NCBI GenBank assembly: GCA_947488765.1
Contig: CANLAE010000003.1
Location: forward strand, 1 to 64,000
Reading direction: 5' to 3'
Source of the DNA: Chitinophagaceae bacterium
Lineage (GTDB): Bacteria; Bacteroidota; Bacteroidia; Chitinophagales; Chitinophagaceae
DNA length: 64,000 nucleotides
Positions 3,387 to 28,265 of this stretch are shown here, piece by piece. The notes beneath the pieces were generated by a model. That model did no database searches. It saw nothing but the letters and a program-made list of their open reading frames with translations, and was not told the origin of the DNA. Position 1 is the stretch's first letter. Each line of letters begins with the position of its first letter. The translations under genes were made by a program, and so were the position numbers.

Positions 3387-4652
3387 ATGAATAATTCCAT
3401 ACCACTTGCTGAGCGGTTACGCCCAAAAACATTAGATGAGCTCATTGGTCAGCAGCACTTAACGGGGGAAGGCAGTATTTTAAGAAATGCTATTGAACAA
3501 GGAAAAATTCCTTCCATGATTTTATGGGGACCACCTGGCGTTGGCAAAACAACTATTGCAAATATTATTGCACACACTTTATCAGTTCCATATTTTCAAC
3601 TAAGTGCAATCAGCAGTGGCGTTAAAGATGTTCGTGATGTAATTGAACAAGCTAAACAAACAACAAAAGCTATTTTATTTATTGATGAAATTCATCGGTT
3701 TAACAAAGGGCAGCAAGATGCATTATTAGGTGCAGTAGAAAAAGGAATTATCACTTTGATTGGTGCAACAACAGAGAACCCATCATTTGAAGTAAACAGT
3801 GCCTTACTGAGCCGATCGCAAGTATATGTACTGAAGCCTTTGAATGAAAATGATTTGATTGAATTGTTACATCATGCTATTACAAAAGATGAAATTTTAT
3901 CTAGACAAAAAATTATATTAAAGGAGACTGAAGCACTTATCAATATTAGTGGTGGTGATGCAAGGAAGTTATTAAATTTATTAGAGCTTGTAGTTTCCGC
4001 CTCGGATCAAAATGAAATTATCATAACGGATCATTTAGTAATGCAAGTTGCTCAACAAAAAATTGCTTTGTATGATAAAAAAGGCGAGCAACATTATGAT
4101 ATTATTTCAGCCTTTATTAAAAGTATGAGAGGAAGCGATCCAAATGGTGCCGTGTATTGGCTAGCAAGGATGATTGAAGGCGGAGAAGATGTAAAATTTA
4201 TTGCCCGTCGTATGCTAATATTTGCAAGTGAAGATGTTGGCAATGCCAATGCTAATGCACTTTTGTTAGCCAATGCAACATTTGATGCCGTAAGCAAAAT
4301 TGGTTATCCTGAAAGCAGAATAATTTTAAGTCAATGTGCAACCTATTTAGCATCGTCACCAAAAAGCAATGCTTCGTATGAAGCGATTGGCAAAGCTTTA
4401 CAATTGGTCAATGAAAAAGGGGATTTACCCGTTCCATTACATATTCGCAATGCACCAACAAAATTGATGAAAGACATGGATTATGGAAAAAATTATCAAT
4501 ACTCACATTTGGGTGAAGGCAACTTTATAGAGCAGGAATATTTACCTAAAGAAATTGCAGGAACAAAATTTTACGAGCCCGGAAATAATGCGAGAGAAAA
4601 TGAATTGAGGAAATTTTTAAAAGAAAAATGGAAAGGGAAATACAAATATTGA
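3387..4652 (+). CDS. rarA: Replication-associated recombination ATPase RarA/MgsA
   Basis: A 421-residue AAA+ ATPase. Walker A GPPGVGKT is at 48-55, Walker B/DEIH at 100-103, followed by sensor 1 (GATTENPSFEVN) and a C-terminal MgsA tetramerisation region (from about residue 255, including SEDVGNANANALLLANA). Length and motif order fit the MgsA/WRNIP1/Mgs1 family, which acts at stalled replication forks. The start context (ATG, Leu-Ala-Glu-Arg-Leu-Arg-Pro) is the usual one. Its stop codon lies within the left part of a strong inverted repeat that likely terminates transcription from both this gene and the convergent SDR gene. Confidence 0.95.
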   Translation: MNNSIPLAERLRPKTLDELIGQQHLTGEGSILRNAIEQGKIPSMILWGPPGVGKTTIANIIAHTLSVPYFQLSAISSGVKDVRDVIEQAKQTTKAILFIDEIHRFNKGQQDALLGAVEKGIITLIGATTENPSFEVNSALLSRSQVYVLKPLNENDLIELLHHAITKDEILSRQKIILKETEALINISGGDARKLLNLLELVVSASDQNEIIITDHLVMQVAQQKIALYDKKGEQHYDIISAFIKSMRGSDPNGAVYWLARMIEGGEDVKFIARRMLIFASEDVGNANANALLLANATFDAVSKIGYPESRIILSQCATYLASSPKSNASYEAIGKALQLVNEKGDLPVPLHIRNAPTKLMKDMDYGKNYQYSHLGEGNFIEQEYLPKEIAGTKFYEPGNNARENELRKFLKEKWKGKYKY

Positions 4653-22161: not shown

Positions 22162-24909
22162 ATGAAAAAGGTAATTTCTACTTTTTTGTTTTTTATTGTT
22201 GTAACTCTTGCACATTCACAAACTACTTATTATTGGGTAGGTGGCACAAATGGTGCTTGGGCAACAGCTACCAGCTGGAATACAGCTTTGAATGGAAGTG
22301 GGACATCGAGAAGTTCCAATAGTTCATCAGATATTTTAATTTTTGATGGAAGTAATATTGGTGGTGCATCTGCAACTACGGGTACAATAACACCAAATAA
22401 TCAAGGATCAACATCTTTCGCACAGTTGAAACTACAAAATGGTGCGAATGTTGTATTTCAAAGGTCTGTAACAGGAAGTTCAACCTATACAATTTTGGGA
22501 GAAGGCACTGCAGCTGATGATTTTACAATAGATGCAACCAGTTCATTAAAAATAACTTCCTCAATTGCAGGATATGGTTTTACAGTTCAATTAGGAAATA
22601 CAACATTCAACACACCTTCCGGTAAAATTTTTGGTACTATAAGAGTCGATGACGGAGGATTAGCATCTACTTGCAGACTGATAGATTCTAGCGCGATTAG
22701 TTCATTGGTATTTGCAAATGGATCTAATTTATACTTATATAACAGAAGTTCAACATCGGCATACGCATTTGGAACTAGCTCTACCCCAAAATCTACAAAT
22801 TACAGTTTCAAATTTCAAGCAGGGTCAAATTTTATCTACCAAGGTACAGCAAAAGTATTTGCAACTATGGCTACCGATTATTTCTTTGATTTTGACAAAG
22901 GAAGTAATGTAATATTAGAAGCAACACCCCCCAACCTATTTTCAAACCACAGTTTTGCAAATGTTATTGTAAGAAACAATCAAACAATAACTTTAGACGG
23001 GAACCCTTATATCATAGATACTTTAACTATCAATACGGGAAGTACATTATTAATAAAATCTACTGGCAATACCAACATTACAGGAAGCATTATCAACAAT
23101 GGCACTTTTGGAAGTGCAGGAACAGGAGCTACTTCATCTGCACTTTTAATGGTTGGAACAACACCTCAAAGTATTGGTGGCACAGGAACATATAATGCAA
23201 TTGGAGCTTTACAAATTGCTGCAGATGCTGATGTTACATTGAATGCAAATATTACATTAAATGGAACTTCAACTTCAAGTATCGTAGGTAAATTAAATGC
23301 ACAAACTTATTCTATTACCGGACCTTATACAAGTTCTTATAATATCAGAACAGCTTCTAATGTAACTACAGCAGGTTGCAATACTTCAGCAGATGGTTAT
23401 AGCGTTACTTTACCAACAGCCGTATATACTTCAGGTGTAAATACTGCAAATGCAGTAGCGGGTGTATTGGTTTCAGGACCTGATTTTCAACCAAATACTT
23501 ATATTATAGGTACAAGTTCCGGTACTAGTACAATTACCCTTTCTAAACCAGCTTATACAAGAAGTGCTGTGGGTACAGTATCTGTTACATTAAGTAATAA
23601 TGGTGGTACACTTTCTACAGCTAATACAGCAGGGTTAGATGGTACAATCACATCTTCCTTAAAGAGAACTTTTGGAGTTGGTACAAATTATATTTTTAAT
23701 GCTGCAACCACCACTCCTTTTTCTGATAGTGCTTATTTAAATCCTATGGGTAATGTAACTTTTAATGCTCCTGTTACTACCAACAGAACCCAAAATGTTA
23801 CAGGTGTATTAACACTCAATAGTGGCAACTTAATAGTAAGACCAACTGATACTTTAATTATTCAAACTACTGGAAGTGTTGCTGGCGCAAGTGCTTCAAA
23901 ATATATTGCCTTACAAAAAAATACCACTTCAGTTGGGGTTTTAAGGATGAATGGCGTAACTGGTTCTAGAGTTTTTCCTATAGGTAGTGAAACAAAATAT
24001 TTACCTGTAACAATTACTCCAACCACAACTGACTCAGTTGCTGTAAGTATTTTTGAAGGAGCAACTGTAGATGGCACTCCAGGTGGAACTGCAATGAATG
24101 CAACTCAAAAAGCAAGAATTGTAGACGCAATTTGGACAATCAACAGAATTTCTCCTAATTCAGATGCATGCGGTGTTATTACAAGTTGGACAGCAGCTTT
24201 AGAAGGCTCTTTATTTAGTAACTATGCAAACAGTGAAATAGGCATTAGCAGATACAGTGGAACTGCTTGGACAAATGCAGCAGGTGCAGGTGATAACGCT
24301 GCTAATACAGCTACAAATAATACATTCACTTCTTTTGGATCATTTGGTGTTGGTAAAGTTGGAACAACTTTACCTGTAAAAATTTCTAGCTTTAACGCCA
24401 TTCAAGAACAAGGTAAAATTAAATTAACTTGGAATGTAAGCTCAGAAATAAATGTATCAAATTACACTATTGAAAAATCTACTGATGGTGTTCAATTTAA
24501 TACATTATCAACTTTAAATGCAAACAACAATCAAAACTACACTAGTTATGATTTTGCTCCTGCTTCAATTAATTATTACAGAATAAAAGTTGTAGAGAAC
24601 AATAACAGCAATAGCTACAGCAGTATTGTAAAAATTAAAATAAGTTCAATTAAAGCTGAATTGGTAGTTTATCCAAATCCTATTGTAAATAATCAATTCA
24701 GTGTTCAATTAAGCAATATAGCAAAAGGAAAAACGGATGTTGTTATTTACAACAACATTGGCCAACAGGTATTTTCTAAATCGATTCTATCTGAAGCTGG
24801 AAGTCAAACACAGTATATTTCTCTTCCTACATCTATTTCAAAAGGATTGTACAAATTGGTAATCACTAATAATGAAACCAAATTGCAACAAACATTATTG
24901 ATGCAATAA
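22162..24909 (+). CDS. Large T9SS-exported surface protein, function unknown
   Basis: A 915-residue protein. Signal peptide (1-19), a Ser/Thr/Gly/Asn-rich beta-repeat body (about 20-700) beginning TYYWVGGTNGAWATATSWNT, a fibronectin-like region (LPVKISSFNAIQEQGKIKLTWNV, about 735-825) and a T9SS C-terminal domain with VVYPNPIVNN (about 833-915). Part of the body (VSGPDFQPNTYIIGTSSGTSTITLS) resembles the module inserted in the SusD of this window. It is probably a surface adhesin or matrix protein. No enzymatic motif was recognised. It is the only plus-strand gene in the central part of the window. Confidence 0.8.
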   Translation: MKKVISTFLFFIVVTLAHSQTTYYWVGGTNGAWATATSWNTALNGSGTSRSSNSSSDILIFDGSNIGGASATTGTITPNNQGSTSFAQLKLQNGANVVFQRSVTGSSTYTILGEGTAADDFTIDATSSLKITSSIAGYGFTVQLGNTTFNTPSGKIFGTIRVDDGGLASTCRLIDSSAISSLVFANGSNLYLYNRSSTSAYAFGTSSTPKSTNYSFKFQAGSNFIYQGTAKVFATMATDYFFDFDKGSNVILEATPPNLFSNHSFANVIVRNNQTITLDGNPYIIDTLTINTGSTLLIKSTGNTNITGSIINNGTFGSAGTGATSSALLMVGTTPQSIGGTGTYNAIGALQIAADADVTLNANITLNGTSTSSIVGKLNAQTYSITGPYTSSYNIRTASNVTTAGCNTSADGYSVTLPTAVYTSGVNTANAVAGVLVSGPDFQPNTYIIGTSSGTSTITLSKPAYTRSAVGTVSVTLSNNGGTLSTANTAGLDGTITSSLKRTFGVGTNYIFNAATTTPFSDSAYLNPMGNVTFNAPVTTNRTQNVTGVLTLNSGNLIVRPTDTLIIQTTGSVAGASASKYIALQKNTTSVGVLRMNGVTGSRVFPIGSETKYLPVTITPTTTDSVAVSIFEGATVDGTPGGTAMNATQKARIVDAIWTINRISPNSDACGVITSWTAALEGSLFSNYANSEIGISRYSGTAWTNAAGAGDNAANTATNNTFTSFGSFGVGKVGTTLPVKISSFNAIQEQGKIKLTWNVSSEINVSNYTIEKSTDGVQFNTLSTLNANNNQNYTSYDFAPASINYYRIKVVENNNSNSYSSIVKIKISSIKAELVVYPNPIVNNQFSVQLSNIAKGKTDVVIYNNIGQQVFSKSILSEAGSQTQYISLPTSISKGLYKLVITNNETKLQQTLLMQ

Positions 24910-24986: not shown

Positions 24987-27269
24987 TTATTTTTCTTGAA
25001 CCATAATATTGATTCCTTCACTATGACTTTTGAATTCCGGTGCATACATACATTGTATGGAAGCTATACCAACACTAAACTTACCTGTATGTGTTACATA
25101 CAAAGGATATTCAAAAAAATATGTTCCTTTTTCTAAGTAATCAATAAAGAAATTAGTACTTGCATCTTTTATTACTTCGTAGTAGCCCAATCCATCTTGC
25201 TGTTTGTAATTACTCAAAATATTTAAAGGCTCTGTAGCACTTGCACGCATGTCTTTTAAATGAAGGTATTCCATTGTTCTGTCGCTTTTTAATTCAATGC
25301 GAACAACAATTTTATCTCCCACTTTTAAACCATCATTTGTATTGATTAATTGTAAAACTGTTCCTTGATTATTTTTCTTTTCAAGGAAATATTTTTTCTT
25401 CAAACTCAATGGGCTCGATACTTCTGTGGTTTTATCCATGTCTTCAAAATACTGCCAGTAAACCGAGCCAAATGATGGTGCTGATTGTTGAACAGCTGTT
25501 TTATTGATTTGACTGATGGTAATATTACCCATATTTGCATTGACTTTATCCCCTGCAATTCTTTGTTTGATGTAATCAGTATTGCCTGCTGCTGAAGTTT
25601 GATTTTTGATAACCAGATTGCCTAATTTAATTTGTGTTTGCTGATTATTATTTATCCAGCTATTACCCGAATTCAGCAATGCATAACAAGCATCGGCAGT
25701 TGCAACAGTTGTTTGCCAATTATTGGTTTGTTTGTTTAAAATAAGCCATTTTTTTGCAGCATCAATTTTATTATTGATATCGCTTAATACTTTATTTGAA
25801 GCTACTTCATTTAAAAATTCAATCATCAAACTTTGATGTTCTATTGGAGATGCGTACCAAAAAAAGGTGGTTCTTTGCTTCCAATATAAAGTGCCATTTG
25901 TAGTATCTTCTATTGCATTTTCTAAAATAGATGGCAGCATATTTACATTAACAAATCTCGTTTCGTTATTGCGATAAAAAGTTAATCCAATCAACGCTGT
26001 ATTATAAGAATTTTGTTTTTTCCAATATTGCTTTGCCTGATTGTAATAATACAGATAAGCTTCTGTTTTTTTGCTGTCATCTGCATAAAACCTTTTCATG
26101 TATAAATACTGAATTTGAGTAGCAAATAAATTATTCTTATTTAAATCAATTTTATTTTTTTTCAACCAATTGTAATCATTGGTGGTTTGTATATCCAAAT
26201 ATTCCAAAGCTTTATCTACAAGGGCTTCCAGGTTATCAATTTGATCATCGGTAAGTGCATTTATTTTTTTTAATTTACCAATACCAATCAAAATATAATT
26301 GGTGATATATCGGTTTTCATTACCACCTTTAAACCATGCAAAACCTCCGTTGTTTGTTTGTAGTTGTTTCAACTTTTCTATCAATGCATCAATATTGCTA
26401 GTCATTTTTCCTAAGTCAAAAAGCAAGGCAATATTTTTTTGATTTTCTTGTTCAGTTTTTGCATTCAATACCCAAGGTGTTTCCTGCAATAATATTTGTT
26501 TCAGTTCTTCATTTTTCTGAAGATTTGATTTCAACATTGAAGTATCATTTTTCCAACGATCTATTACTTTTTTGATAGTTGCATTTTTATTTACAATGTT
26601 TGCTGCGAGGGCATTTGCGAACATTCTATTAAATATTTGTTCGGAACATTCGTAGGGATGTACCATTAAATATGGCAAAGCCTGTACTACATTCCATATT
26701 GGATTGGAAGTATTATCAACCGTAACACTTTCATGCACCAATGATTCACTTTTATTGTTCAATAGTTTTTCAAACACAAATGATTTTTCTATTTCACTGG
26801 GCTTTAAATACAATGGCAACGATTCTGTAACCAACATTCTATTGGTTAATACCGGAACAATATTTTCTTCGCCATCACCATAATTTCCTGCTTTTGCTAT
26901 CACTCGCCAAGTAAGTGGTTTGTTAAAATTGTATGGTATTTGTATAGGAAATTTTACTATAGTAATTTGTTGTGCATTTGCAGTAAAATATTGCGTTGGA
27001 AAACTGTTTTGAAACCAACCATCCACACTCACACCTGTGGTTGCATCTAACAATTCTAAAGTACATTGTCCGGTTAATTCTTTGTCACCAAGATTAGCAA
27101 TTTTAGCAACAATTTCAAGGTTATCTCCTTCTCTCAAAAACCTTGGTAGGCTTGTTTTAACAGAAAGTATATTGTTACTAATCGTTTTTAATAAGGTATC
27201 ATTTTTTTGTGCAAAAACATTGTCGAACAATAATAAAAAGAGACAACAAACTAATACTTTACGAAGCAT
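24987..27269 (-). CDS. Short alpha-2-macroglobulin-like protein with thioester-type motif
   Basis: A 760-residue exported protein (signal peptide 1-20). It starts directly with a beta domain like the A2M-type MG domain (about 35-150), followed by helical thioester-domain-like repeats (about 190-560) and a C-terminal receptor-binding-like beta domain (about 640-750). The segment PYECSEQ (Cys208 to Gln211) retains the C-x-E-Q thioester pattern. Bacterial A2Ms usually exceed 1,500 residues and carry MG1-MG6 plus a bait region, which are absent here. A full signal peptide argues for a genuine short form rather than a fragment. Protease trapping in the periplasm is the family role; without the bait region the role here is uncertain. 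Confidence 0.8.
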   Translation of the reverse strand: MLRKVLVCCLFLLLFDNVFAQKNDTLLKTISNNILSVKTSLPRFLREGDNLEIVAKIANLGDKELTGQCTLELLDATTGVSVDGWFQNSFPTQYFTANAQQITIVKFPIQIPYNFNKPLTWRVIAKAGNYGDGEENIVPVLTNRMLVTESLPLYLKPSEIEKSFVFEKLLNNKSESLVHESVTVDNTSNPIWNVVQALPYLMVHPYECSEQIFNRMFANALAANIVNKNATIKKVIDRWKNDTSMLKSNLQKNEELKQILLQETPWVLNAKTEQENQKNIALLFDLGKMTSNIDALIEKLKQLQTNNGGFAWFKGGNENRYITNYILIGIGKLKKINALTDDQIDNLEALVDKALEYLDIQTTNDYNWLKKNKIDLNKNNLFATQIQYLYMKRFYADDSKKTEAYLYYYNQAKQYWKKQNSYNTALIGLTFYRNNETRFVNVNMLPSILENAIEDTTNGTLYWKQRTTFFWYASPIEHQSLMIEFLNEVASNKVLSDINNKIDAAKKWLILNKQTNNWQTTVATADACYALLNSGNSWINNNQQTQIKLGNLVIKNQTSAAGNTDYIKQRIAGDKVNANMGNITISQINKTAVQQSAPSFGSVYWQYFEDMDKTTEVSSPLSLKKKYFLEKKNNQGTVLQLINTNDGLKVGDKIVVRIELKSDRTMEYLHLKDMRASATEPLNILSNYKQQDGLGYYEVIKDASTNFFIDYLEKGTYFFEYPLYVTHTGKFSVGIASIQCMYAPEFKSHSEGINIMVQEK

Positions 27270-27338
27270 AAGTGAAAATTTATAAATGAAAATAAAACCT
27301 TTCGTCCGTATTCATATAAAACCTATAGTAACTAGATA

Positions 27339-27389: not shown

Positions 27390-28265
27390 TTATTTTTTAG
27401 CTAATTCCGCAGCCATAGTTTTACCAATATCTGCAGGGCTTGCAACTACTGCAATACCACATTCTGCCATGATTTTCATTTTAGCAGCTGCAGTGTCATC
27501 AGCACCACCAACAATAGCACCTGCATGTCCCATTCTGCGACCCGGAGGAGCAGTTTGGCCAGCAATAAAACCTACAACTGGTTTCGTTTTATTGTCTTTA
27601 ATCCAACGAGCAGCATCAGCTTCCATGCTACCACCAATTTCACCAATCATAATGATGCCATCCGTTTCAGGATCTTCCATTAATAATTTAACTGCTTCTA
27701 CAGTTGGTGTTCCAATAATTGGATCTCCACCAATACCAATTGCCGTGCTTATTCCTAAACCAGCTTTTACAGCTTGATCTGCAGCTTCATAAGTCAATGT
27801 TCCGCTTTTGCTTACAATTCCGATACGACCTTTCTTAAATATAAATCCTGGCATAATGCCAACCTTTGCTTCTTCGGCAGTAATAACACCCGGACAATTT
27901 GGTCCAATTAATCTGGTAGTTTTTCCTTCTAAATAATTTTTCACTTTCACCATATCTTGCACCGGGATTCCTTCTGTAATGCATACTACCAAAGCAATTC
28001 CTGCATCAGCAGCTTCCATAATTGCATCAGCAGCAAAAGCAGGAGGTACAAAAATGATACTTACATCAGCACCAGTATTTTTTACAGCATCTGCAACAGT
28101 ATTGAAAACAGGTCTTTCTAAATGTAAGGTGCCACCTTTATTAGGTGTAACTCCACCAACTACATTTGTTCCGTATTCAATCATTTGAGAAGCATGGAAA
28201 GTTCCTTCTGTTCCTGTAAATCCTTGAACTAAAATTTTTGAGTTTTTATTTACTAATACTGCCAT
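27390..28265 (-). CDS. sucD: Succinyl-CoA synthetase alpha subunit SucD
   Basis: A 291-residue TCA-cycle enzyme subunit. N-terminal CoA-binding Rossmann domain with [11 protein letters not shown], central [20 protein letters not shown], and the phosphohistidine segment [13 protein letters not shown]. Length is normal (about 290). The beta subunit SucC is not adjacent, which is common in Bacteroidota. A housekeeping gene, unrelated to the polysaccharide loci. Confidence 0.97.

Follow-up and report, generated by a model that had tools for sequence, protein, structure and literature searches.

A shortened alpha-2-macroglobulin (A2M) gene was found in the 64,000-nucleotide stretch of DNA analysed here (the window), which belongs to a freshwater, small-genome relative of Chitinophaga (genome G000). 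The gene (760 codons, ATG start) encodes an apparent signal peptide followed by the C-terminal half of a Bacteroidota A2M, and we are highly confident of this anatomy and of its origin by in-frame loss from a resident full-length A2M beside sucD. Our tentative reading, held at somewhat short of even chances, is that the product is an exported thioester module that lacks the bait region, is still under selection and cannot be triggered by bait cleavage. The main rival is slow decay of the reduced gene. Descriptions of bacterial A2Ms present them as bait-triggered traps; a natural form that is kept by selection without the bait and with the thioester would, if real, mean that the thioester half is useful by itself.

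Gene, domains and predicted fold

The window's genome comprises 2,505,652 bp in 37 contigs and is 100% complete. The contig with the short A2M gene measures 187,802 bp, with the gene about 25 kb inside. An earlier note on this DNA had reported a 760-residue A2M with an apparent signal peptide and the motif PYECSEQ, and the open reading frame was confirmed together with the motif. The note's statement that no other A2M part is adjacent also held, as the sequence upstream is an intact sucD, separated from the start of the short gene by about 120 bp, and not A2M sequence. The features are as follows.

24987-27269, minus strand: short A2M gene, 760 aa, signal peptide plus C-terminal half of a Bacteroidota alpha-2-macroglobulin (sequence, Pfam, sister-species copy)
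27390-28265, minus strand: sucD (succinyl-CoA ligase alpha), conserved upstream neighbour, intact (Pfam and comparison with relatives)
27210-27269, minus strand: apparent signal peptide, residues 1-20, cleavage between A20 and Q21, no lipobox (by eye; AQxxDTxxK N-terminus common to full-length relatives)
27162-27209, minus strand: residues 21-36, remaining short piece of the mature N-terminus together with the deletion junction, which is placed approximately (from aligning both short forms to full-length N-termini and to the MG start)
26880-27164, minus strand: first retained MG domain, approximately residues 36-130 (model strands; structural alignment to 4ziu)
26709-26879, minus strand: first CUB segment, approximately residues 131-187 (model strands; assignment approximate)
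25650-26708, minus strand: thioester domain (TED), helical, approximately residues 188-540 (model secondary structure; residues of about 189-542 align with C3d and with the thioester domain of C5)
26658-26660, minus strand: His204 at the lock-tyrosine position (comparison with 105 homologues)
26637-26648, minus strand: CSEQ thioester motif, residues 208-211 (sequence)
25410-25649, minus strand: second CUB segment, approximately residues 541-620 (model; assignment approximate)
25035-25409, minus strand: bMG10 (C-terminal MG, CTMG) domain, residues 621-745, including Met741-Tyr742 (Pfam PF17973; Met-Tyr conservation)

Downstream of the short A2M lies a convergent gene for a Por-secretion-tail protein (22162-24909, 915 aa), which is intact in G000. 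In the sister species (G005), this gene is a decayed 3' remnant (locus L118, about 3985-4290), 76% identical over the first 165 aligned bases with two gaps, and 65% over a longer stretch. The neighbours of the short A2M are thus sucD and the Por-secretion-tail protein gene, and not pbpC; adjacency to pbpC is not defining for the clade, because the full-length relatives that were checked also adjoin sucD. A scan for promoters and terminators at the short A2M gave no signal above shuffles.

The apparent signal peptide, which was recognized by eye and not by a predictor, reads MLRKVLVCCLFLLLFDNVFA and is followed by QKND. Together with a short linker it runs straight into the MG domain located after the bait-bearing part of other A2Ms. 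Full-length relatives have MG2, a bait region and the PF00207 A2M domain; the short A2M has none of the three, and its N-terminal MG chain is reduced to one MG domain ahead of the CUB. This domain is MG9 in the numbering of Fyfe et al. and MG7 in the title of PDB entry 4ziu. The earlier proposal that the preceding MG domains and the bait are missing is therefore upheld, with its label MG1-MG6 corrected to MG1-MG8 plus bait under the same Fyfe numbering. The only Pfam match was bMG10 (PF17973, E 2.3e-30, residues 621-745), no NCBIfam model matched, and the sole hit in a PDB sequence search was E. coli YfhM, with a weak score (best E 0.0037).

Structure prediction, which the earlier note had suggested as a check, gave the fold of a C-terminal A2M half. 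The AlphaFold2 model (mean pLDDT 80.4, 42-row alignment) was most similar to 4ziu, native E. coli A2M from MG7 to the C-terminus (Z 23.0, rmsd 5.1 Å, 584 aligned), and its TED resembled C3d and the thioester domain of C5 in fold. Native chains of A2M and C3 were approximately 4-7 Å from the model and activated chains approximately 15-17 Å, in agreement with Foldseek. As a control, the C-terminal half of the full-length G009 protein was modelled (pLDDT 81.0); this model was not native-like, at 13.5 Å to 4ziu and 15.0 Å to activated 4rtd. Domain arrangement therefore varies between predictions, and no conclusion on an open or closed state is drawn. As far as models can tell, the fold of the short A2M is secure, and the placement of the TED against MG10 is not.

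Relatives beside sucD and origin of the short form

In a sample of ten genomes of the genus, five (G000 included) had an A2M match. The sister species G005 carries the same 760-aa form at 84% identity behind the same sucD, so that the short form, which the earlier note had proposed to seek in relatives, does recur. Full-length A2Ms directly follow sucD in the more distant congeners G009 (2,076 aa) and G002 (2,061 aa), and the short A2M is 63-66% identical to them over the C-terminal half. In G004, an A2M frame of at least 1,097 codons runs off a contig end, and the sucD contig ends in the apparent start of a signal peptide; we take this A2M as full-length though its frame is incomplete. In locus L119 of the same genome (2617-5745, minus strand), the stretch of the bait region includes a Plug domain of the TonB-dependent receptor type (PF07715, E 2.7e-10), which spans residues 137-203 of the frame read and immediately precedes PF00207. 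The other five genomes (G001, G003, G006, G007, G008) gave no A2M match, and the stretches around their sucD genes showed no A2M homology (best E 2.1). As half of the sample is without a match, the gene can be lost.

The mature short forms begin with AQKNDTLLK, which matches the start of the full-length proteins in G009 (AQTGDTTFKK) and G002 (AQTSDTTFKK). Among 64 full-length homologues with an intact 5' end, 33 carry AQ, and five of these have AQxxDT at the same spacing (L080, and L032, L035, L037 and L038, which are among the most query-like homologues). The motif was found in none of 79 background signal-peptide proteins with AQ. Alignment also extends to the DNA ahead of the start codon, where short and full-length genes agree at 33-35 of 59-60 positions. 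After about 15 mature residues, the short-form sequence resumes in the MG domain beyond the bait-bearing part. Since the signal peptide is the gene's own, with AQxxDT shared with the full-length proteins of G009 and G002, the short form arose by an in-frame internal deletion of approximately 1,320 codons.

Close to the junction, both short forms have Ser36, Thr39 and Ser40 where homologues have near-fixed Met (103 of 105, with two gaps), Pro (97 of 105) and Asn (97 of 105). These residues are either substitutions or derived from the retained N-terminus, which includes a similar stretch with Leu-Pro at its end. In a tree of 12 C-terminal halves, the short forms were a clade, sister to G004, with 100% support. 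Because they are monophyletic, a single event on a single branch explains them most simply, and the deletion predates the split of the G000 and G005 species.

Selection, decay and the thioester site

The genes of G000 and G005 differ at 244 nucleotides, without a gap or stop in 760 codons. When 244 neutral changes were simulated, a mean of 13 stops arose and none of 2000 runs was free of stops; the observed number of amino acid changes (120) is below the simulated neutral minimum of 137. With dN at 0.072 and dS at 0.326, dN/dS was 0.221 by NG86 and 0.195 by YN00. This is the second highest value of 100 reciprocal-best orthologue pairs (those with dS over 0.1 among 106 found), for which the median was 0.070. 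Full-length C-terminal halves had dN/dS values of 0.026-0.087 in 14 pairs with dS of 0.27-1.34; the remaining pairs had higher or saturated dS. Judged from these sequence comparisons, the short A2M is under purifying selection that is relaxed approximately three-fold relative to full-length C-terminal halves.

Relaxed constraint is also what one would expect from the main rival, according to which genome reduction halved the gene and the remainder, with little or no role, is being lost. Besides the elevated dN/dS, this account can draw on the longer branches from the common node (0.27-0.28 for the short forms versus 0.18 for G004), and on the departures at 67 columns that are invariant in 40 longer homologues (three in G000, four in G005; 0-8 in leave-one-out comparisons of the 40 longer homologues, of which 32 had 0 or 1). 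The five genus members without an A2M match and the lost lock tyrosine in G000 (below) point the same way. However, the reading frame has stayed free of stops, frameshifts and indels over 760 codons while the neighbouring gene remnant decayed, dN/dS is far below 1 although all divergence after the species split postdates the deletion, and both species retain CxEQ and the Met-Tyr pair. We consider decay unlikely on balance, even as the strongest of the competing explanations. If decay is all there is, the gene would be a datable intermediate of A2M loss during genome reduction.

Both short forms keep CxEQ, as do 100 of 105 other distinct homologues. The five homologues without it (L029, L037, L038, L103, L105) all have changes in the residues just before the motif as well. 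According to PMC4498604, the thioester of E. coli A2M is shielded by two tyrosines of the TED and by a Met-Tyr pair in the last MG domain, from which the cleaved bait displaces the TED. Both short-form species retain the Met-Tyr pair (Met741-Tyr742) and the second TED tyrosine. The first lock position, which is occupied by Tyr in 92, Phe in eight and other residues in five of 105 homologues, is Tyr in G005 and His in the window species alone. Matched by its position relative to CxEQ, this site (His204) corresponds to lock Tyr1175 of the Salmonella protein treated in PMC4498604. The earlier note's view of a genuine short form with its own signal peptide and CxEQ thus stands; relaxed selection, His at the lock in G000, and five of ten genus genomes without an A2M match speak against its simple 'complement-like' reading.

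A role that does not involve covalent chemistry was also considered, with the C-terminal half acting as a periplasmic binding or scaffold protein and the thioester motif being incidental or hydrolysed at once. There is precedent in Type II A2Ms such as MagD, which trap protease non-covalently without CxEQ according to PMC5764988; the motif has been lost in 5 of 105 homologues, and His204 may weaken protection in G000. Yet the known non-covalent trapping needs the bait region that the short A2M is missing, and CxEQ is exact in both species though it can be lost in the family. We therefore regard a purely non-covalent role as rather improbable.

Rarity, proposed mechanism and known systems

Two overlapping samples were scanned for A2M, one of the family (394 genomes, 271 with a match) and one of the order (396 genomes, 286 with a match). 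Among the matches listed, which were the stronger ones, no third short form with a signal peptide was found besides G000 and G005, in a one-by-one check that covered only part of the longer incomplete frames (approximately 900-1,700 aa). Other short frames among the matches listed were due to a contig end (G165) or to a frame break near the bait region, with the N-terminal part lying immediately upstream (G363, G315, G629); locus L073 is of the latter kind. In a set of 110 loci, the short frames not accounted for in this way (L034, L062, L077) are cut off by contig ends. A viral scan yielded no relative of the short A2M. A literature search found no short or bait-less bacterial A2M, which does not exclude an earlier description.

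The A2M genes of L113, L114, L145 and L073 are broken near the bait into side-by-side N- and C-terminal frames, either natural two-chain A2Ms or sequencing errors. In each of three genomes (G610, G650, G662), a pair of full-length A2M frames separated by about 6 kb looks like tandem copies.

Four homologous loci with a frame broken near the bait and the N-terminal part directly upstream might suggest that the short A2M, too, is one part of a split protein that assembles with an N-terminal half encoded elsewhere. This is very improbable: the N-terminal 1,302 residues of the A2M from G009, used as a query, matched nothing in G000 or G005, and they did match G009, G002 and G165 (3 of 10 genomes searched). 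The one MG2-domain protein of G000, on contig C19, was set aside as a candidate for the N-terminal half, since a similar frame exists in G002, which has a full-length A2M, and no MG2 match was present in G005. The C19 frame (842 aa; L206/L208, C19:22616-22855) lies beside an apparent SusC/SusD pair, as judged by eye. An assembly break or a frame error upstream at 27270, either of which the earlier note had named as fatal to its proposal, is refuted by the mid-contig position, the complete sucD upstream and the same form and junction in the independent assembly of a second species, even though comparable short frames elsewhere are contig ends or broken frames.

The history starts with an ancestor of the two sister species, which lost about 1,320 codons in frame from its resident full-length A2M; the gene's own upstream region, the signal peptide, a short mature N-terminus and the MG-CUB-TED-CUB-MG10 half were left. 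The product would be exported to the periplasm and is predicted to have the fold seen in the isolated C-terminal half of the E. coli protein. Without a bait, it cannot be set off by the competitive trigger known from E. coli. If the short A2M is indeed a selected, bait-less thioester module, the covalent route that remains would be a thioester that opens spontaneously or on meeting small amines, provided that the bond forms and is used. The thioester would be held by contact between TED and MG10 and, once open, could couple covalently to nearby periplasmic nucleophiles. Selection still keeps the short A2M, more loosely than the full-length protein. We put forward covalent capture of this kind as a possibility with slightly worse than even prospects. 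Conceivably, though with still more reserve, the short A2M is a natural stand-alone bacterial thioester protein, in which an export-targeted TED-MG10 module, one deletion away from a protease trap, captures periplasmic targets covalently without bait or proteolytic trigger, as a counterpart of C3 tick-over. In any case, its mature form of 740 residues is suited for testing thioester protection and reactivity without the rest of the trap.

The closest known system is the full-length Bacteroidota A2M beside sucD in Chitinophagaceae (approximately 2,000-2,100 aa), which is like the short form in place, own signal peptide, CxEQ and MG10, and differs by the approximately 1,320 residues (all earlier MG domains, bait and PF00207) that the short form is missing. 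Two features of bacterial Type I A2Ms, CxEQ in a helical TED and the Met-Tyr pair of bMG10, are present. Compared with the Type I protein of E. coli (YfhM, ECAM; PDB 4ziu), the short A2M has the domain set of the 4ziu structure, CxEQ and the Met-Tyr pair of the final MG domain, at 14% identity over the aligned part; unlike it, the short A2M is a natural gene product of 4ziu-like size, has neither bait nor lipobox, and is not encoded beside pbpC. Type II A2Ms, represented by Pseudomonas MagD, are likewise bacterial periplasmic A2M relatives, and according to PMC5764988 MagD keeps the bait and misses CxEQ, the reverse of the short A2M. Complement C3 and C5 and the TEPs have an MG ring and cleavage-triggered activation, both of which are absent from the short A2M, so that a mechanistic likeness would be a matter of inference; what they have in common with it is the fold of MG, CUB, TED, CUB and C-terminal MG domains.
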